Source of the DNA: Thiohalomonas denitrificans | Lineage (GTDB): Bacteria > Pseudomonadota > Gammaproteobacteria > Thiohalomonadales > Thiohalomonadaceae | Reading direction: 5' to 3' | DNA: 64,000 bases | NCBI GenBank assembly: GCA_020725115.1 | Contig: DYFR01000017.1 | Span: forward strand, 16,807 to 80,806 | Part shown: positions 13,588-27,786 of the stretch, piece after piece | Numbering within the stretch: the stretch's first letter is position 1 | How the letters are laid out: each line of letters starts with the position of its first letter | Notes under the pieces: model-generated | What the model was told of the DNA's origin: nothing | The model's input: the letters and a program-made list of their open reading frames with translations, nothing else | Databases searched by the model: none | Position numbers and translations under genes: made by a program

Positions 13588-14502
13588 ATGCCCACTCCGC
13601 AATCCGCCATCCTCGCCCTGGACGGTCCGCTCGGCCTGTTCCTGGTATTGCACCTCAAGCCCGGCGCCGATGACGCCGTGCGCCAGGCCGCGGCCGCGTT
13701 CCCGGCACTGCTGGACGACATCTCTTCTGCCGCACCGGAGGCACAACTGGTCGGCACGCTGGCCTTCGGTCCGCAGCAGTGGGATCGCCTGAGCAGCACG
13801 CGGCCGAAACTGCTCAAGCCCTTCGGCCCGCTCGACGGCGGCACGCTGCGCGCCCCGGCCACCGGCGGCGATGTGCTGCTGCACCTGCACTCGGCACGCG
13901 CCGATCTCAATTACCTGGTCGCCAACCGCTTCGCCGCACCGCTCAAACCGTGGATCGACCGCGCCGAAGAGACGCCGGCCTTCCGCTATCTCGACGCACG
14001 CGACCTCACCGGCTTCATCGACGGCACGGAAAATCCGCAGGAACAGGACGAGCGGCGCGAGGCGGCGCTGATCGGCGACGAGGACGCGGCATTCGCCGGC
14101 GGCAGCTACATCATCGCCCAGCGCTACGTGCATCACCTGGAACGCTGGAACACCATGCCGCAGCAGGAACAGGAAGGCGTCATCGGCCGCAGCAAGCCCG
14201 ACTCGGTGGAACTGGACGATGGCGTCAAGCCGCCCACCGCCCACATCGCCCGCGTGGTGATCGAAGAAGACGGCGAGGAGCTGGAGATCGTGCGCCACAG
14301 CCTGCCCTACGGCTCGGCCTCCGGCGAGAGCGGCCTGTTCTTCCTCGCCTGCTCCCGCGACCTGACCATCTACGACAAGATGCTGCGCAACATGTTCGGC
14401 CTCAGCGGCGACGGCCTGCATGATCGTCTGATGGAATTCACCGAAGCGGTGAGCGGCGGCTATTTCTTCGCGCCGTCAGTGGAACAGTTGCAGCAACTCT
14501 GA
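13588..14502 (+). CDS. Dyp-type peroxidase
   Basis: TGFIDGTENPQEQ, GGSYIIAQRYVHHLERWNTMPQQEQEGVIGRSK, SGLFFLACSRDLTIYDKML. Confidence 0.95.
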   Translation: MPTPQSAILALDGPLGLFLVLHLKPGADDAVRQAAAAFPALLDDISSAAPEAQLVGTLAFGPQQWDRLSSTRPKLLKPFGPLDGGTLRAPATGGDVLLHLHSARADLNYLVANRFAAPLKPWIDRAEETPAFRYLDARDLTGFIDGTENPQEQDERREAALIGDEDAAFAGGSYIIAQRYVHHLERWNTMPQQEQEGVIGRSKPDSVELDDGVKPPTAHIARVVIEEDGEELEIVRHSLPYGSASGESGLFFLACSRDLTIYDKMLRNMFGLSGDGLHDRLMEFTEAVSGGYFFAPSVEQLQQL

Positions 14503-14521
14503 CCGCAGCTCGGACGGTTCC

Positions 14522-14590
14522 GTGGGAGCCCGGCTCGCCGGGCGATGCGCCCCATCCGACGCCGTCATCGCCCAATGAATTGGGCTCCCG
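14522..14590. repeat. REP-like inverted repeat (GTGGGAGCCCGG...TTGGGCTCCCGC)
   Basis: Same family as 13489-13559. Confidence 0.6.
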
Positions 14591-14599
14591 CCATGCGAA

Positions 14600-14668
14600 G
14601 CCCGTGTTCTTCCTCGCCTGCTCCGACGGCCTGACCAGCTACAGCAAGCTGCCGCTGTTCTCCAGCAC
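14600..14668 (+). pseudogene. Remnant duplicating Dyp-type peroxidase 3' segment
   Basis: gtgttcttcctcgcctgctccgacggcctgaccagctacagcaag closely matches 14336-14380 in the intact DyP gene; PVFFLACSDGLTSYSK vs GLFFLACSRDLTIYDK. Confidence 0.7.
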
Positions 14669-14670
14669 CA

Positions 14671-15093
14671 CTAGTTCAACCTTTCCCCCCTGCGAAGAAA
14701 TTTATCCAAAAGGCGCTTCAGTATTTCGGTGTCCTTTGTTTCGCACTCCCATATCACGATAACTCGCCAACCAAGGCGCGCCAACGCCTCCATATTTTCC
14801 TTGTCGCGTTCAATATTTCGTTTTAGCTTACTGTCCCAGAATTGAATATTGCTTGACGGCCGAGATGCACGCTTACACCCTGGATGCTGGTGCCAGAAAC
14901 ATCCGTGGACAAAAATGCATGTTTTGTATTTCGCCAACACGATGTCGGGCTTGCCAGGCAAGTCCTTCTTGTGGAGACGAAAACGAAAGCCCAATGAATG
15001 GAGCGCCTGACGAACCACCAACTCTGGTTTAGTGTTTCTTTCATGCACAGATGACATTACGCGAGAACGATCCGCCTGAGATAGCTTATCCAT
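14671..15093 (-). CDS. vsr: Very short patch repair endonuclease
   Basis: RSRVMSSVHERNTKPELVVRQALHSLGFRFRLHKKDLPGKPDIVLAKYKTCIFVHGCFWHQHPGC. Confidence 0.95.
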   Translation of the reverse strand: MDKLSQADRSRVMSSVHERNTKPELVVRQALHSLGFRFRLHKKDLPGKPDIVLAKYKTCIFVHGCFWHQHPGCKRASRPSSNIQFWDSKLKRNIERDKENMEALARLGWRVIVIWECETKDTEILKRLLDKFLRRGERLN

Positions 15094-15105
15094 CGGATAC
15101 GCTTA

Positions 15106-16902
15106 CTACGGACGGGCTTTGAAATTCATACCCAAACCCGGCCGCGATAGTGACATTCCTATTCTCTGAAGAAGATTCAATGCATATTCAGAGCGTAGCT
15201 GCGCTACTACGGACGCATCTCCCCAAACGACTTTTAGTTCGCCCTCTATCTCACGCAGAGTCCCAAGAGTAAATCCATTTGAGGAACTAAATCTTCCCTT
15301 ATCACGGGCAAACTTCTGCTCCCAGTCTGGATTACTTGTAACGTTTCCTTCTCTATATATGCTGAATGTACAAATATCGCCATCGACGTCAAGGAATAGA
15401 AATGCATTATTAGTGGCATTTTTTAGCGCGGTTCTGTCGGCAACCTTCTGCAACCTGACTGCAACAAAGGGGATGCTGTCACCTAAACCAATTCCTGTCC
15501 GTTTTTGATCAGGAACCATATCACATGCAGGGGAAAGACAAACCCAAAATCCAGGCCCACCCTCTTCGCCGGAATCTACATTCCGGAACACATGGCCTGT
15601 CGTTAAGTGTGATCTGTCTACCGGTTTGGTACTCGAAAAACAATTGAAGCGCTTCAGCGATTCATTTGTACCTACGTCGGCCATATTCAGGCCGCACTTC
15701 CTCATCACTTCGTCACTACCCATTGGAGAAAAGTAATCTCTCAACTCCTCCGCAAAACTTGCCAGGCGAGCACTTAATTCATCCCCGAGCGCTTCCCAGT
15801 GCCTATTAATGGTGCTCTGAATGACAGCCCTATTATCAACGGGGTCGGATTTCAAAAAGTCATTTAGCCATTCAGCTTGAAGATGTCTATTTTTGAGGAT
15901 TGCTGTTTCGGCGTTCAACCCGCGCTGATCAATCTCAGCTCTCATCCTTGTAAGCAACAAGCGATGGGGCGACGGAAACGAAGTTCTAATTGCATTTATG
16001 AGAGATATTTCGAATTGGTCTGGGGCGCACTCCTTCGGAAGCACTGTTATAAACAACTTATCAGTTCGTATCCAGTTGACACCATCGGAACTCCCTATAT
16101 GGACACTTCCTAGATCATCTGGTGAGAACTGCCTAATCAACTGCTCCTGCTTCTTAGAAACAATCCATTTAGCCAGTTTTCCAAGGTCAATATTTAAACC
16201 TTCCGGCCTGCCCAACCAAAGCTCCCGTAATCGCGCCCCGTCTTCTAAACTGAGAATGCCGCAAGGATTACCAGGAAAATCAGATCGGACTTGTAGGTAC
16301 GTATTTTCGGATATCTCCGCCTCCAACTTAGCCGTAATACCTTCATGCCCTTCCTCCCACTCATCCAATGCATCTATCAATGAAGATTTTTCAATTTCAT
16401 CATTAATAGATAACGCCGGATCTGTATGTGTGAGGCCAAGTGCGATTTCTCTATTAACTTTCTCTAGGTCACCCTGGTAACCTTTAGTGTGCACAATCAC
16501 CAAATTAAAATGGTCGCTTTGAGCAAGCTTCCTAAGAATGTTAATAGCTGCATCTCCGCTCCCATCATTACCATCCAAATGGTAATCGAGCACCAAAAGG
16601 TCAGAATGGTCGAGATGCGTTGCGATACCCTGTTCAGAGGTTGACGTTATCTTCTTGCCGTCATGTACATCTACCAGCCACGGCTTACTTCTATTTCGTG
16701 CAAATTTAAGTAGTTGGCGAACAGCCTTAACCTCTCCCGTATTACCTTTATTCCAGGCATCCTTATCTCCAGCCTCTTTTGCCGCTAAACTATCTAGCGT
16801 CGGATATTCATCATCAACCACAACTACAGTCCGGATTGGATCTATAAAAACGTCCCGAATGAAACGATCATGAATATCCGCTCCAGCCGAAGCACTACTC
16901 AT
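15106..16902 (-). CDS. Receiver-domain protein with large uncharacterised C-terminal region
   Basis: RTVVVVDDEYPTLDSL acidic pair, LLVLDYHLDG phospho-Asp, VIVHTKG; 8-bp overlap with upstream ATPase gene. Confidence 0.8.
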   Translation of the reverse strand: MSSASAGADIHDRFIRDVFIDPIRTVVVVDDEYPTLDSLAAKEAGDKDAWNKGNTGEVKAVRQLLKFARNRSKPWLVDVHDGKKITSTSEQGIATHLDHSDLLVLDYHLDGNDGSGDAAINILRKLAQSDHFNLVIVHTKGYQGDLEKVNREIALGLTHTDPALSINDEIEKSSLIDALDEWEEGHEGITAKLEAEISENTYLQVRSDFPGNPCGILSLEDGARLRELWLGRPEGLNIDLGKLAKWIVSKKQEQLIRQFSPDDLGSVHIGSSDGVNWIRTDKLFITVLPKECAPDQFEISLINAIRTSFPSPHRLLLTRMRAEIDQRGLNAETAILKNRHLQAEWLNDFLKSDPVDNRAVIQSTINRHWEALGDELSARLASFAEELRDYFSPMGSDEVMRKCGLNMADVGTNESLKRFNCFSSTKPVDRSHLTTGHVFRNVDSGEEGGPGFWVCLSPACDMVPDQKRTGIGLGDSIPFVAVRLQKVADRTALKNATNNAFLFLDVDGDICTFSIYREGNVTSNPDWEQKFARDKGRFSSSNGFTLGTLREIEGELKVVWGDASVVAQLRSEYALNLLQRIGMSLSRPGLGMNFKARP

Positions 16903-19867
16903 AATTTGCCCCTTTGAAATCTATTATGAAGTTTGCGCCGGATAGCTTGCGCATGCCGTTTTCGGTTGCATAACTAATCGTGTGCCCACCTGACGCCAAG
17001 TTTGCCCGACAAAGATAAAGTCCTACACCTCGTCCACCGCGAATCTTGCGGGTAAAAAACAGGGTGAATAGGTTTTTTAGGTCATCTTTCTCAACACCTG
17101 GCCCATCGTCAGAAATTACAACTTTGCCGTCTATAACATCCAAAGATATGGTCTTTGAACTTGCGCCTGATTGATTGACCCAATACGCGGCATTATTTAT
17201 AAGATTAATAAACACTGGGTAAATACGTGATGCTTGTTCGTATACATTGAACCGACCGAATGCAGGACTCACCTCAAGGGTTATGCCACGTCGTGCGAGG
17301 GAATCTCCCATAAAACCTTTTACGTATTCTACGATTTGCTCCCCGCTAATCCATTTTCTGATCTTCTCACCGGAGAGCTTTAATGGAGAAAGAAACCGTA
17401 GTCTATCAACAAGTGCTTGATGCGCGGTCCGGATCGAAACGAAAGTGTTGGTGTTTTTTACAGCTTCCGGTAGAGCCTCCAGCCCTCTAGAGATTGTCAT
17501 CTCCAGCCCCTCAATTTCATGACCAATGATCTCTACAGTAATACCGAGCTGTGCCAGCGCATTTAGCCTGTCAAGCTCTTGGCGTAGTTCCGCAGATTCT
17601 TCCATTGTGAAGCTAACGAGGGTTTCAATATCGACGCTTTCCTGAAGGCTCTTTAGTGTTGAGATATATGGTTCAAAGAGTTCGGAATTATCGCTATCTT
17701 GCTTCTCTCTCTCTAATTCAAGTGCGTCAAGGACTTTTGTAAGAGAGGATCTACCGTGCTCTAGGTCGTCCAGCAATGGCAGTGTTTCGGTGTGATAGCG
17801 CTTGTTACGCTCATCCACCAAGTCGGAAACGCGCTTGATCTCTGCGCTGAGGATATCTTTTGCTTCAATTGACCATTTACGCAATCGGTGTTGTATATAT
17901 GCGGCATTGCGACTGATCTCGGAATACGCTGCATCTCTAGACGACTTAGGTTTGACTTTTTCTATGGCGTGGGAAATCGAGTCGATTAGTCGAACAATAA
18001 GCTCATTGGCACGACTGTCACTGTTACGGAACTCCCGATATTCAGATTCAAGGTTCCCTAGATTGTTTGGGGGAGGGCCAAGAGCAAGCGTTGCTCGGCG
18101 TGCCTTAAGTGCAGAAAGCCGTTCTCGCATCGCCAAGAGTTCTGTTTCCGTGGCCGGCAGATCGTCCTCGTGCGCCAAATTAGCAAGTTGCTCGAGTTCA
18201 TTTTCAATCAACAGAATCTCCGGCAAGTTAGCAGCTAAATGGCTACGAAACTCTCTTCGTTTTCTGGACCGAACCTTCTTCTGCGCGTCGTCTGCCTTTT
18301 GTTTTGCGTACGTTTGACGGAGTTCTGGAAGTACCTGCTTTCGAATATCTGAGTCAGTTCCATAGAAGCGCTTAGCGCTCTCCATGAGAATATTAATGAC
18401 GATGTCACGAAAAATTTTAGCCGCCTTATTATCAATGATCCCTTCGCGACCTGCCTTATCACGAAGGTTTGGGTTTTCTTGTCGTGTCAACGCTACCCGG
18501 CCAAAAAGCCGTCTATTTGACCAAAACCACCGACCCGCATGCATACCTCGACGTTTTTCGATTTCAAAATAGTCGTTATCCTCTCGACCATATGGCATAA
18601 CTCGAAGGCCATTTCTAAACATTAGCAATCCGCCATATTTAGAAACCTGTTCCAATAGTTTCGCCTGCACCTCGGCGGAATGAGTAGAACCTCCTAACGT
18701 CGCCTCGAAAGCCCCAAGTCGCAAATGGAATTCTCCTACCATAGAGTCCGCTCGTGTCGGAACTGCAAATGGAGGATTTATAAGAACGTCCCCAGGCAAC
18801 AACTTTCCGAATGCCTTCACTCTACCTTTGAAAATCCCATTTATATCAATGACTCCATCAATAACGTGCTCTAGGTCTTCGAGATTCTTATAACCAAATT
18901 CCCTTTCATCCGAGATTATGGGGCGACTTAACTCACCCTCCCAAGCAGTTACAGAATAATTAAAGTCGTCTGCACCAAAATCACTGTGCGCCTCAACGGC
19001 GTCAACAAATGGATCTGTGAAATTTGACAGCGTCTGGAAAAACCTCTCTTGTGCGTACTTGAATGTATCGCTTTCGTTCGTACTACTAGATGTTTGAAGC
19101 TGAGCTTCAAGGTCATAGACGATGTTGGCCATCAGCATCGCTGTCCCGTTAGGTGAAGTAGCTGCCCACACAGGCCAGTTTTCGATATGTCGTTCACTAA
19201 AGGCTGTGCCAATTAATGTCTGTTCTATCGCCGACTTTGTAGAAGCCCGCCCCTCCTGCTTCTCGAGATCGTCGTACGCGGCCCACGCCATCGCGATCCG
19301 CTCATCCCGCGCCTTATCCGCCCCATCGCCCCATACATTTCCCATCATTTTGTCAAATAGGTGAGGGATATGTGTCCAAAGGGAACCTTTGACGTCGAAC
19401 TCAACAACCGGAATTTCTATGTCCTGTAAATATAGAAATGGATTTTCGAACAGACGCCAATCAATCAGTGCAGCAACAAATGGGGTGGTTTTACGTTTCG
19501 AAATTAGAAGAAGGAGAGAACCTAAATACCCCGAAGAAAGGCGACCTATGCCCTTTTGTCCTTGCTTCTCACGGTAGGGAAGTCCGTTGCGATCCGCCTC
19601 AGGAACTCCAGTGGTCGTTGCTTTTGATTCGGTACCTATGACCAACCATTTTTCGATGAATTCCTCTCGACTCATGCCGTGGCCATTGTCCAGAATGGCG
19701 GCAATCGGGACATCTCCATCAAAGATGTGCAGTGCAACTTCCCGAGCGTAAGCATCGTAGGCATTTTTCCAAAGCTCGGAAACCGCCGTTGGACAGTCGG
19801 CTATCTGCTCGCGACCTAAATGGTCGACTGTTCTCGCACGAGTTCTGAATGCAATGGAATCAACCAT
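16895..19867 (-). CDS. Dual GHKL ATPase: N-terminal MORC/MutL/Hsp90-like ATPase, C-terminal histidine-kinase-like HATPase
   Basis: N-term: TAVSELWKNAYDAYA, AILDNGHGM, REKQGQKGIGRLSSGYLG; C-term: VEIIGHEIEGLEMTI, FINLINNAAYWV, VVISDDGPGV, FTLFFTRKIRGGRGVGLYLCR. Confidence 0.88.
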   Translation of the reverse strand: MVDSIAFRTRARTVDHLGREQIADCPTAVSELWKNAYDAYAREVALHIFDGDVPIAAILDNGHGMSREEFIEKWLVIGTESKATTTGVPEADRNGLPYREKQGQKGIGRLSSGYLGSLLLLISKRKTTPFVAALIDWRLFENPFLYLQDIEIPVVEFDVKGSLWTHIPHLFDKMMGNVWGDGADKARDERIAMAWAAYDDLEKQEGRASTKSAIEQTLIGTAFSERHIENWPVWAATSPNGTAMLMANIVYDLEAQLQTSSSTNESDTFKYAQERFFQTLSNFTDPFVDAVEAHSDFGADDFNYSVTAWEGELSRPIISDEREFGYKNLEDLEHVIDGVIDINGIFKGRVKAFGKLLPGDVLINPPFAVPTRADSMVGEFHLRLGAFEATLGGSTHSAEVQAKLLEQVSKYGGLLMFRNGLRVMPYGREDNDYFEIEKRRGMHAGRWFWSNRRLFGRVALTRQENPNLRDKAGREGIIDNKAAKIFRDIVINILMESAKRFYGTDSDIRKQVLPELRQTYAKQKADDAQKKVRSRKRREFRSHLAANLPEILLIENELEQLANLAHEDDLPATETELLAMRERLSALKARRATLALGPPPNNLGNLESEYREFRNSDSRANELIVRLIDSISHAIEKVKPKSSRDAAYSEISRNAAYIQHRLRKWSIEAKDILSAEIKRVSDLVDERNKRYHTETLPLLDDLEHGRSSLTKVLDALELEREKQDSDNSELFEPYISTLKSLQESVDIETLVSFTMEESAELRQELDRLNALAQLGITVEIIGHEIEGLEMTISRGLEALPEAVKNTNTFVSIRTAHQALVDRLRFLSPLKLSGEKIRKWISGEQIVEYVKGFMGDSLARRGITLEVSPAFGRFNVYEQASRIYPVFINLINNAAYWVNQSGASSKTISLDVIDGKVVISDDGPGVEKDDLKNLFTLFFTRKIRGGRGVGLYLCRANLASGGHTISYATENGMRKLSGANFIIDFKGANYE

Positions 19868-19903
19868 TATATTTGGCGCCCCAAATTAATTTCTCAATTC
19901 GCC

Positions 19904-20989
19904 CTACCGCCCGCATGACAGGCCCTCGGCAACCGCGCGAAGAAGTACCTCTCCCAACTTTATTGGAACAGCATTACCGATTTGGGCGCCCGCTGCCATT
20001 AGTCCGCCTTTAAATACATAGTCATCTGGAAACGTCTGAAAACGAGCTGCTTGCCTTACAGTTATTCCATGGTGCTGCACGGGGTGTACAAAGCGACCCT
20101 TCGACGGATTGATGCATGCAGTCGTCATCGTTGGCCCTGGTTCTTTAGGGTTAATTCTTCCATAAACATCATTATGTCCCCCATGGCCAATGTGACATAG
20201 CAACGTACGTCCGGAGTCGTGCCGACTTCCACCATTAGCTGGCGTTTCCATAAACACTTTTACCAGCTGTTCTGTATGCATCATATGAACATCATTGGTA
20301 TCGTCTTTTGGCGCTCCCCGAAATATTTTTGCCTTTTCAGCAGTCACCCATGGCAATAGTTTAGGGCTTTCCTTTCGCTGGCGTTCATCACCATGCGTGG
20401 CTTGAGGAGGCCAAACAGAAGTATCGAAGTCGACGTCTTTGTGTACTCCAAGAATGAAAACCCGCTTCCTTCTCTGCGGGACACCAAAATCTCTTGCATC
20501 AAGGAGGACGCGCTCAAACATTCTGTAATTGGCTTTTTTTCCCTCTTCGTACAGCTTATCCAAGAACTTGCGATGACGCTCCCACAGCAACCCAGGTACG
20601 TTTTCCATCAGGAATGCCTTCGGCTTAAGAACCCTTACAAACTCGAAGTACCGCAAAACCAACTGATTTCTAGGATCATCAACGCCCGCATCGTTTATAC
20701 GATGCACAGAAAATCCTTGGCATGGCGGGCCACCCAACACAAGATCACATGTTGTGCTGTTATGGAAATGCGCCTTTTTAATCGTTCTTGGGTTAAGCTC
20801 GCGAATATCTTTGTGGTATAGAGTCGTAGCCCCTTCTTCGCCAACGATATTGTGTCGGTAGGTTTCACATGCATGCGTGTCAAATTCGACGGCAGCAACA
20901 ACTGTTAAACCTATATTCTTGGCTGCGAGTGAGAACCCACCCGCGCCCGCAAAGAGGTCGACACAATTCAGCATTTCTTTGTACGTCAC
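19904..20989 (-). CDS. DNA (cytosine-5-)-methyltransferase (Dcm-like)
   Basis: VDLFAGAGGFSLA, GGPPCQGFS, MENVPGLL, FGVPQRRKRVFILG, QIGNAVP. Confidence 0.97.
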   Translation of the reverse strand: MTYKEMLNCVDLFAGAGGFSLAAKNIGLTVVAAVEFDTHACETYRHNIVGEEGATTLYHKDIRELNPRTIKKAHFHNSTTCDLVLGGPPCQGFSVHRINDAGVDDPRNQLVLRYFEFVRVLKPKAFLMENVPGLLWERHRKFLDKLYEEGKKANYRMFERVLLDARDFGVPQRRKRVFILGVHKDVDFDTSVWPPQATHGDERQRKESPKLLPWVTAEKAKIFRGAPKDDTNDVHMMHTEQLVKVFMETPANGGSRHDSGRTLLCHIGHGGHNDVYGRINPKEPGPTMTTACINPSKGRFVHPVQHHGITVRQAARFQTFPDDYVFKGGLMAAGAQIGNAVPIKLGEVLLRAVAEGLSCGR

Positions 20990-21009
20990 TGTTCGTTTTC
21001 TTGGGATGT

Positions 21010-21315
21010 TTATGCGTTGCGCTTGCGTGGCCGAATTGCGAGCTCCAGATCTAGGGCGCGCAATACTGCGATGAAATTTGACAACTTTGGATTACCGTCA
21101 TCAGAGAGTGCGCGGTAAAGACTTTCGCGAGAAAGCCCCGTTTCCCGTGAAAGATATGACATACCCTCCTTGGCGCGAACTACATCCTTGATTGCTGCCA
21201 GCATTAGGCGTCCATCGCCATCTTCTATAGCAGCATTGAGATAATCGATAATCTTTTCAGTCGTATCCAAGTAATCAACCGGATCAAAAAGCGCTGAATG
21301 CGTTTTAATTTCCAT
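21010..21315 (-). CDS. HI1420-type addiction module antidote / HTH protein (orphan)
   Basis: AAIKDVVRAKEGMSYLSRETGLSRESLYRALSDDGNPKLSNFIAVLRALDLEL; no toxin gene found next to it. Confidence 0.85.
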   Translation of the reverse strand: MEIKTHSALFDPVDYLDTTEKIIDYLNAAIEDGDGRLMLAAIKDVVRAKEGMSYLSRETGLSRESLYRALSDDGNPKLSNFIAVLRALDLELAIRPRKRNA

Positions 21316-21482
21316 ACCAGCATCCTCCGGATGATGTTCAATCCCTATCGAAATCCGACGCTTTTTGTATTCTTTCTCCGTCGAATTTTGACGAGAATGT
21401 GCGTTTCCGTCTGAGGTGTCAAGTGTGGGCTACACCTTGTGTATCCGCAGGCAGATGAGTGCACACCATTACCTCACGGAAG

Positions 21483-21518
21483 GGATGATGGGTTTCGCTT
21501 TCACTCTACCCATCATCC
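21483..21518. repeat. Perfect 11-bp-arm inverted repeat GGATGATGGGT-N14-ACCCATCATCC
   Basis: Direct reading. Confidence 0.9.
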
Positions 21519-21590
21519 TGCGGAACCACTTATGGCGACCACCGCGCCCCCTGGCTTGGCGTGAGGCGTTGGTATGCTCCCCATTTCGAC

Positions 21591-21890
21591 CTACGCAGCC
21601 CGCGGCTGAATCTCCTTTTCCAGGGTCGCACCTACGGCGTCGCGCACTACATCCAGATCGTAGGCATTCTGCAGGTTGAGCCACAGCTCGGCCGTGGTAC
21701 CGAAATAGCGCGCCAGGCGCAGCGCCGTATCGGCCGAGATGGAGCGCTTGCCGAGCACGATTTCATTGATGCGTCGCGGCGCCACATGGATTTCCTTGGC
21801 CAGACGGTACTGGCTGATCTCCATGGGCTCCAGAAAATCCTTCAACAGAATCTCGCCGGGATGGATGGGCTGTAGTTTTTTGCGCGCCAT
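21591..21890 (-). CDS. higA: HigA family antitoxin (fused in frame to truncated HigB upstream)
   Basis: MARKKLQPIHPGEILLKDFLEPMEISQYRLAKEIHVAPRRINEIVLGKRSISADTALRLARYFG. Confidence 0.92.
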   Translation of the reverse strand: MARKKLQPIHPGEILLKDFLEPMEISQYRLAKEIHVAPRRINEIVLGKRSISADTALRLARYFGTTAELWLNLQNAYDLDVVRDAVGATLEKEIQPRAA

Positions 21891-22060
21891 ACCCGCCTCC
21901 TGGTGATAATCGACAATTTCCACATCGTGTGCGTTGCCCGCATCCCAGTGGAAGCAGATACGCCATTGGTCATTGATACGAATGCTGTAGCAACCCTTCC
22001 TGTCACCGTGCAACGCCTCCAGCCGGTTGGCAGGCGATTGGCGTGCGCAAGGGAACCGGG
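21891..22060 (-). pseudogene. Truncated HigB/RelE-like toxin C-terminal half, stop codon lost
   Basis: [47 protein letters not shown] then MARKK; compare intact HigB at 45595-45873. Confidence 0.8.
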
Positions 22061-22079
22061 CGCAGATATTGCGCAAGAT

Positions 22080-22334
22080 TCAGTCATACCAGTCGACCAC
22101 CTGGAGCTGCGGCACGCGGCGGAATTCGCGCAGATTGCGGCTGACCAAAGTCGCACCGTTGGCCAGGGCGGTTCCGGCGATCAGAGTATCGATGGGACCG
22201 ATGGGCTGCCCCGATGCTTCCAGCGCAGCACGGATGGCCGCTGCCTGCGAGGCTGCCGGGCGATCGAAGGGCAGGATGGTGACCAATTCGAGCAGCGCAT
22301 CGAATTGGGCGCGCCGCCGGGCCGGCTCTAACAA
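22080..22334 (-). pseudogene. 5'-truncated VapC/PIN toxin
   Basis: QFDALLELVTILPFDRPAASQAAAIRAALEASGQPIGPIDTLIAGTALANGATLVSRNLREFRRVPQLQVVDWYD lacks N-terminal MxxLDTN region. Confidence 0.8.
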
Positions 22335-22337
22335 GTG

Positions 22338-22387
22338 GGGTCAGAACATAGATGTAGCTAATATTAGAGGAATCTGTGTTCTGACCC
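22338..22387. repeat. Inverted repeat GGGTCAGAACA...TGTTCTGACCC
   Basis: Perfect 11-bp arms; sits exactly at vapC truncation point. Confidence 0.85.
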
Positions 22388-22631
22388 TGACGGCTCCCAT
22401 CCGTGGTATGGGAAAGGGCCTCCCACAACGATTCCGTGAGTACTTGGTCGTAAAGGCCGTCAGGCAATCCCATTGCTCTTGCCTTCCTCATGGTGATTTT
22501 GTTGTGGGAAGTAGCCGGGCCCTATTTTTCAGATTACTCACCTGGCGTTTGAAGAGGCACAGAACTTGTTGATGGTTTCGAAACCAACCCTGTCGCTCTA
22601 TCCATCCCGTACCACAACGAGCGATCCAGCC

Positions 22632-23012
22632 TCATAATTCTGTCTGCAATATAAGCTTCTCGCCTTTCTTGGCAACGGGCTCAACGATCTTCTGCAAGCC
22701 ATGGCCTGGATTCTTTTCCAGCCGCGTTACCAACAAGCCAATCAGCTCGAGAGCTTTCACGTCCCGCGACAGCGCGGCACGCTCGCGGTGCAGATTCTCG
22801 GACAAGCGCGCCAATGTGACGCCATTGGTCTTGCGAACCTCCCGCAATACCTTCAGGCGATTGGCGGACATCAGCGCCTGGAACGATTCTGGTTCGAGGG
22901 TGATGACCTTGGGGGATTTCGCGATCGGCTCGCCCCGATCGGCGGCGCGCGCGACGCTGCGGGCGCGCTCGAAGAAGTCTTTGGTTGTGCCTTCTTTAAC
23001 GACAGTGCTCAT
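22632..23012 (-). CDS. MarR/HTH-like putative antitoxin (HVO_A0114/TumA-like)
   Basis: LEPESFQALMSANRLKVLREVRKTNGVTLARLSENLHRERAALSRDVKALELIGLL. Confidence 0.65.
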   Translation of the reverse strand: MSTVVKEGTTKDFFERARSVARAADRGEPIAKSPKVITLEPESFQALMSANRLKVLREVRKTNGVTLARLSENLHRERAALSRDVKALELIGLLVTRLEKNPGHGLQKIVEPVAKKGEKLILQTEL

Positions 23013-23086
23013 CGGCAATTACCCTCCATTCTCTTCCGAACCGCTCCATAGTGGATTCGATATGTTCGACGCGGTTTCGGCTTCGT

Positions 23087-23530
23087 TCACGGCTTTTCCA
23101 TGTGCCTCAATTCTGTCAGCGCATCGCGTGGAGAGAGAATGTGCAGATCGCCCAGTGGACGCAGACAAAGCAGATCGTCATCGCCACTGATCAGACGGGT
23201 TGCCCCTCCTGCCAGCGCGGCATGAATGAACGCATCGTCTTTTACATCCCGCGAAAACGACTGCGTTGCAAGTTCTGCGGAAACCTCCACCCACATCGCG
23301 CTGGCATCCAGCTCAAGGAGAATGCGCCGTCTCCGTTCGATCGGCAGATAGCGATCAAACTTGGGTTTCCATATGCGTGTTTCGATCTCTGAAAAAGTGG
23401 CCTTGGAAAATATCAAACGGCCGTCGGCCAGCAAGCTGTCCACCAACTCGGCAGGCACGCTGTGTGGAAGCAGCGCTGCGCTCAACAGCACATTGGTATC
23501 AACCACGACCTTTGCGTAGTCTCCCGACAC
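23087..23530 (-). CDS. PIN domain toxin
   Basis: VVVDTNVLLSAALLPHS...DDAFIHAALAGGATRLISGDDDLL. Confidence 0.88.
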   Translation of the reverse strand: MSGDYAKVVVDTNVLLSAALLPHSVPAELVDSLLADGRLIFSKATFSEIETRIWKPKFDRYLPIERRRRILLELDASAMWVEVSAELATQSFSRDVKDDAFIHAALAGGATRLISGDDDLLCLRPLGDLHILSPRDALTELRHMEKP

Positions 23531-23536
23531 CGTCGA

Positions 23537-23788
23537 TCAGCTTTCGTCTTCCAGCAGCTTGGCCAGCTTTTCTTCGGTCAATCCTGCGGCGGCTGCATGG
23601 TCGGCGCTTTCCCGCAAGGTCTTGCGCAGGCGATCCGCATAGAAGGCCCGCATGGCCTCGTAATCCTCCGCGCTGACCATCACCCCGACCACGCGGTCGT
23701 GGCGCATCACGCGCACCGGCTCGCGCTGCACGCGGTCCAGAAATTCCCCGAATCGGGTCTTGGCTTCATTGGCGGTATAGGTCTGCAT
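23537..23788 (-). CDS. Phd/YefM family antitoxin
   Basis: MQTYTANEAKTRFGEFLDRVQREPVRVMRHDRVVGVMVSAEDYEAM. Confidence 0.9.
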   Translation of the reverse strand: MQTYTANEAKTRFGEFLDRVQREPVRVMRHDRVVGVMVSAEDYEAMRAFYADRLRKTLRESADHAAAAGLTEEKLAKLLEDES

Positions 23789-23834
23789 GGCATCGGCCCT
23801 CAACTATCGGCAGGACAGTTGCACCAACTTTAGA

Positions 23835-23888
23835 CGAATCGCGCGATTCGGTCAAATCGCGCGATTCGGTCGGTGACAGCTTGTCACC
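23835..23888. promoter_or_regulatory. Tandem palindromic operator-like sites upstream of phd/PIN genes
   Basis: CGAATCGCGCGATTCG; second AATCGCGCGATTCGGTC 18 bp downstream; then GGTGACA-GCT-TGTCACC. Confidence 0.65.
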
Positions 23889-23997
23889 GATTGCTCTACA
23901 ACGGCCCAAATCAACTCGGCATCAACGCCCGAACTCGATGGCTTCCCTGAACACCTGGTCGCGAATCTTCGGCTGCCCGGAGGGAGGGGCAGAGGCA

Positions 23998-27786
<3,789 letters not shown>

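Follow-up and report, generated by a model that had tools for sequence, protein, structure and literature searches.

The signature domains HEF_HK and Response_reg_2 were defined in 2021 by Bellieny-Rabelo, Pretorius and Moleleki, who reported a linkage of 91.6% between them, noted methylases upstream and Vsr downstream of the pairs, and described Response_reg_2 with a conserved lysine in beta5 (PMC8011034). The same study found R-M genes to be over-represented near the two domains and suggested that the pair regulates the neighbouring R-M genes. Iyer, Abhiman and Aravind (2008, PMC2292703) had earlier assigned paraMORC ATPases to R-M operons that also encode cytosine methylases and nucleases of the Vsr superfamily. 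The literature that we searched contained no functional test of a role in phage defence for paraMORC or HEF_HK systems. Any novelty implied in the preliminary description of the locus presented here is not supported, since the pair and its linkage to R-M genes were published in 2021 (PMC8011034), and the layout of the Thiohalomonas operon is already known since then. What is added here is a structural match to DHp-CA modules, the optional nature of Vsr, a core of three genes and the swapping of nucleases beside it.

The window, which is the whole stretch of DNA that was analysed, comprises 64,000 nt of Thiohalomonas denitrificans (GCA_020725115.1, contig DYFR01000017.1, positions 16,807-80,806, forward strand). 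It carries an operon of four minus-strand genes, transcribed in the order C5 methyltransferase, HEF_HK kinase, Response_reg_2 receiver and Vsr, with intergenic gaps of 36 bp, -8 bp and 12 bp, respectively; all operon coordinates given below are window positions on the minus strand. GC content is 45-50% across 15-21 kb of the window and 60-70% outside. The first gene (19904..20989) encodes a C5 cytosine DNA methyltransferase of 361 aa (PF00145 DNA_methylase, 1e-60; TIGR00675 dcm), whose relatives in the PDB are M.HaeIII, M.HhaI and DNMT1. The second (16895..19867) encodes the HEF_HK protein of 990 aa, which Pfam, AlphaFold and Foldseek divide into an N-terminal GHKL/S5 ATPase, a long coiled coil and a C-terminal DHp-CA part. 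The third (15106..16902) encodes the Response_reg_2 protein of 598 aa, with a receiver-like domain, a helical middle and a C-terminal beta-rich domain (PF19192, AlphaFold), and the last (14671..15093) encodes an accessory Vsr T:G mismatch endonuclease of 140 aa (PF03852, 1e-32; TIGR00632, 5e-45). Enzymes of the Vsr family nick DNA at mismatches and repair the T:G mismatches that arise from deaminated 5-methylcytosine. Searches of the genome (40 contigs, 91% complete) returned one C5 methyltransferase and one Vsr, both in the operon. No restriction endonuclease domain, which a Type II R-M system would have as its cognate enzyme, was found within the operon by Pfam, PADLOC or other profile models; PADLOC, whose models do not cover the receiver protein, gave only generic MTase, Vsr and REase_II matches. 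The gene positions and gaps, the lower-GC block and the lack of a recognisable restriction endonuclease thus agree with the preliminary description, as do the two GHKL modules of the 990-aa protein and the positions of the His, the Asp pair and the candidate phospho-Asp presented below. Toxin-antitoxin-like genes adjoin the operon (window 21010-23530, Pfam): a HI1420-type antidote (21010-21315), a degenerate-looking in-frame fusion of the C-terminal half of HigB to a HigA-type HTH (21591-22076), an HTH regulator (22632-23018) and a PIN_3 protein (23087-23530).

Analysis of the HEF_HK protein located an N-terminal GHKL domain at residues 27-130 (19478..19789; PF13589 HATPase_c_3, conservation), a HEF_HK/DHp-like helix at residues 773-830 (17378..17551; PF19191, 7.6e-6) and a C-terminal HATPase_c catalytic domain at residues 879-971 (16955..17233; PF02518, 5e-15). 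The Pfam scores of the last two exceeded their cut-offs (26.8 bits against 24.1 for PF19191 and 56.2 against 26.4 for HATPase_c). The candidate phospho-His is H783 (17519-17521), in the motif GHEIEG, and it was invariant in all 84 kinase homologues, together with E31, N35, K471, N888, N892 and D920; K471 belongs to the S5 region and lies outside the GHKL span 27-130. Comparison of the AlphaFold model (pLDDT 81, low at residues 744-777) with the PDB by Foldseek showed that the C-terminal half matches DHp-CA structures of histidine kinases, including CpxA, HK853 and ZraS (E about 8e-9, probability 1.0), while the GHKL-S5 part of Hsp90 aligned over about 540 columns (E about 5e-8). Sequence profiles agreed with these structural matches, and no nuclease fold was found in the model by the same Foldseek search. 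The protein therefore carries the DHp His and complete CA domain of a canonical two-component kinase, and also a GHKL + S5 ATPase module of the paraMORC kind with intact motifs, as judged from the Hsp90 alignment and from E31, N35 and K471. On these models it is a genuine DHp-CA histidine-kinase module behind an Hsp90/MutL-like ATPase; both predicted ATPase sites look usable, and the candidate His falls in the DHp helix. In four loci (L014, L036, L055 and L066), the kinase gene was interrupted or frame-broken, with another ORF inside it in L014.

The receiver-like domain of the partner protein covers residues 23-159 (16426..16836; PF19192 Response_reg_2, 4e-17). Its score was 63.3 bits for a cut-off of 27, and all 71 homologues examined with Pfam matched the same model. 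Residues D30, D31 and D106, the last (16585-16587) being the candidate phospho-Asp of the motif DYHLDG, were invariant in 88 of 88 receiver homologues, and position 139, which is T139 in this protein, was Thr or Ser in all of them. The receiver profile matched that of canonical REC domains with an E of 4e-5, compared with 0.1-0.5 for control regions. However, no conserved Lys was found at residues 132-215 among the homologues, and no beta5 strand was predicted after beta4 in the AlphaFold model (pLDDT 90.8), so that of the acidic pair, phospho-Asp, Thr/Ser, beta5 Lys and (beta-alpha)5 fold of a canonical receiver, the set is incomplete; phosphorylation of this receiver is plausible but not assured.

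The C-terminal beta-rich domain (residues 437-586, 15145..15594) was delimited from the AlphaFold secondary structure and conservation. It contains an invariant C460-D461 pair and is directly followed by an invariant R587 in the homologue alignment, and this candidate domain may be the best place for the predicted output activity. Residues ~200-598 had been singled out beforehand as a place to look for a nuclease or other effector fold, and none was found there. A nuclease in residues 200-598 was rejected, the 71 homologues sharing no Pfam domain beyond the receiver; Foldseek comparison of the middle and C-terminal parts with the PDB gave no match better than E 0.15, and no sequence match to the PDB was found for residues 200-598. 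A MazF/PemK fold was hinted at by one weak Foldseek match of the C-terminal domain (E. coli MazF 5ck9, E 0.34, prob 0.84) and by a motif resemblance seen by eye, and it was rejected when hhalign against PemK profiles performed no better than with shuffled or reversed profiles.

We then compared 89 loci, of which 80 were from species genomes, three from plasmids and six from viral contigs (IMG/VR). The kinase and receiver genes were adjacent in 89/89 loci, a value that is measured from one partner since the loci were collected by a receiver search (the viral contigs by a kinase search). A C5 methyltransferase was present in 85/89 loci and, in 80 of these 85, it was encoded on the same strand at a distance of no more than 120 bp. 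Vsr was present in 35/89 loci, on either side and on either strand. Co-occurrence in other genomes had been set beforehand as a test of the proposed association, and its result is a close linkage of the pair to Dcm and a looser one to Vsr. Vsr as the nuclease of the system was rejected as a general rule (54/89 loci do not carry it). Since Vsr is optional or swapped for other nucleases, the core consists of three genes, i.e. those of the C5 methyltransferase, the kinase and the receiver. The nucleases found beside Vsr-free operons were HNH_2, HNH, AspBHI_N + Mrr_cat, NOV_C and MvaI_BcnI; an Mrr_cat nuclease also adjoins a Vsr-bearing operon in L026. RE_AspBHI_N + Mrr_cat nucleases adjoin the C5-methyltransferase operon in L033 (10854-12149), L044 (8826-10136), L046 (4510-5805) and L058 (3153-4556), and AspBHI-type nucleases are a family that cuts 5-methylcytosine DNA. 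Many loci had no recognised nuclease among the scanned neighbours. Pairwise distances were correlated at 0.84 between kinase and receiver and at 0.37 between kinase and methyltransferase, and one group of six loci had a clearly different methyltransferase, which argues that the pair acts as one unit and that the methyltransferase is more exchangeable. The DHp-CA fold, the invariant His and Asp and the near-universal presence of the methyltransferase support the earlier proposal that a phosphorelay-like pair is embedded in this modification operon. The further suggestion that the pair may serve as the effector arm is one for which receiver residues 200-598 yielded no nuclease or other effector fold.

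Comparison of the insertion site with two genomes of the same genus, G125 (L162) and G504 (L161), showed that about 6.8 kb separate metH from the Dyp-type peroxidase gene in both, and no full kinase match was found in either. This interval, from metH to TSUP/Dyp-peroxidase, corresponds to about 14500-24000 of the window. It contains a BsuBI/PstI endonuclease and an N6 methyltransferase, i.e. an R-M system, in G125, and a radical-SAM and a RES-domain protein in G504. Different genomes thus carry different cargo at this site, among it another R-M system, and the site is a cargo hotspot. Homologues were also located in prophage surroundings, marked by an antitermination Q neighbour and a phage portal, and on IMG/VR contigs (L053, L093 and L089-L094); six IMG/VR contigs carry operon homologues, while tblastn found none in curated phage genomes. 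The alternative cargo and the prophage-context homologues are the main indirect evidence for defence.

The explanation that we favour, at a little below an even chance, is a horizontally mobile, methylation-coupled signalling module with a three-gene core and an optional Vsr, whose role would most likely be restriction-type defence; a defence role as such is likely but unproven. Counted in favour of this module were the linkage and tight same-strand packing of the core genes (89/89, 85/89 and 80/85), the distance correlations and DHp-CA structural matches, the invariant H783, ATPase sites and D30/D31/D106 with the match to the canonical REC profile, and the low-GC island with an R-M system at the same site in G125, neighbour nuclease swaps and viral or prophage homologues. 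Counted against it were the receiver that lacks a conserved beta5 Lys and a predicted beta5 strand, its C-terminal 400 residues from which no effector activity could be read, and PADLOC, which does not model this protein; the many loci in which no nuclease was recognised among the scanned neighbours were also counted against it, so that cleavage is only presumed.

In such a module, the methyltransferase would mark host DNA at its own target, as expected from its family, and the GHKL/S5 ATPase at the N-terminus, together with the coiled coil, may engage foreign or unmodified DNA as a clamp of the MORC/MutL/Hsp90 type. Closure of the clamp would then activate the DHp-CA part, leading to autophosphorylation of H783 and transfer of the phosphate to D106, for which the anatomy is present and the chemistry is presumed. 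The phosphorylated receiver could act as the output by way of its helical middle region and its beta-rich C-terminal domain or, alternatively, could activate a partner nuclease in those loci that encode one. Vsr would repair the T:G mismatches that deamination of 5-methylcytosine produces at the sites modified by this methyltransferase. The gene content, the co-occurrence, the invariant residues and the kinase fold come directly from the analysis; the transfer of phosphate, the sensing of DNA, the action of the effector and the protection against phage are all presumed steps. A more specific version, in which the receiver is a new phospho-switched effector whose beta-rich output domain, with its invariant Cys-Asp, is turned on when the MORC-like clamp detects unmodified DNA, is somewhat unlikely; if true, it would mean restriction by phosphorelay and not by a dedicated restriction enzyme.

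The pair could also be a two-component system that regulates the expression of neighbouring R-M genes and has no direct effector role (Bellieny-Rabelo et al. 2021), as its HK/REC-like anatomy and the over-representation of R-M genes nearby (PMC8011034) would suggest. We consider this unlikely, because Response_reg_2 is the only Pfam domain common to the receiver family, in which no DNA-binding output domain was found, and because many loci consist just of methyltransferase, kinase and receiver, with no recognised nuclease to regulate. Quite improbable is an ATP-dependent restriction complex of the BbrUII/HgiDII or paraMORC style, in which the kinase-like half would only dimerise or sense nucleotide and phosphotransfer would be unused. 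The match of the N-terminus to the BbrUII/HgiDII model (3e-16, residues 12-112), the PADLOC REase_II match (3e-9) and the receiver without a beta5 Lys are consistent with such a complex, whereas the invariance of H783 (84/84) and of D30/D31/D106 (88/88) and the lack of any nuclease fold found in the kinase or receiver protein argue against it. A selfish or housekeeping epigenetic island, in which a signalling pair unrelated to defence is attached to an orphan methyltransferase and Vsr repair, is very unlikely, since the pair is kept with the methyltransferase across distant taxa (85/89 loci) and an R-M system is swapped in at the same genomic site, although Vsr accompanies C5 methyltransferases in general and the operon holds the only Vsr and the only C5 methyltransferase found in the genome.

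Returning to the favoured signalling module, comparison with the described systems showed that the locus has the PF19192 receiver, the adjacent gene with PF19191 and HATPase_c and the nearby C5 methylase of the HEF_HK/Response_reg_2 systems (PMC8011034). It shares with them both signature domains, an N-terminal HATPase_c_3, an upstream C5 methylase and a Vsr directly downstream of the receiver, and it does not differ from them in kind, except that the receiver subfamily lacks the published conserved beta5 Lys. With paraMORC (PMC2292703), it has in common the N-terminal GHKL + S5-type ATPase, encoded in one operon alongside a cytosine methylase and a nuclease of the Vsr superfamily, but paraMORC1-5 as described have neither a histidine-kinase DHp-CA half nor a receiver partner. 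The operon, unlike those of paraMORC, carries no helicase and no RE-fold nuclease other than Vsr. BbrUII/HgiDII-type restriction enzymes have a related N-terminal GHKL domain (NF050001, 3e-16), but the operon protein scores 58.9 bits for a family cut-off of 550 and the match is limited to residues 12-112. Detocs, a defensive two-component system, reportedly uses a phosphorelay from a histidine kinase to a receiver-effector in phage defence; it presumably consists of different proteins and has no DNA methyltransferase or MORC-like ATPase. The evidence presented here narrows the question to a three-gene core in which the predicted kinase is intact, the His and the Asp of the pair are invariant and the candidate output domain has no relative of solved structure. 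Should the pair act as sensor and effector, it would tie the recognition of a DNA mark to two-component signalling, and since we know of no other restriction-like system driven by a phosphorelay, it would be the first.
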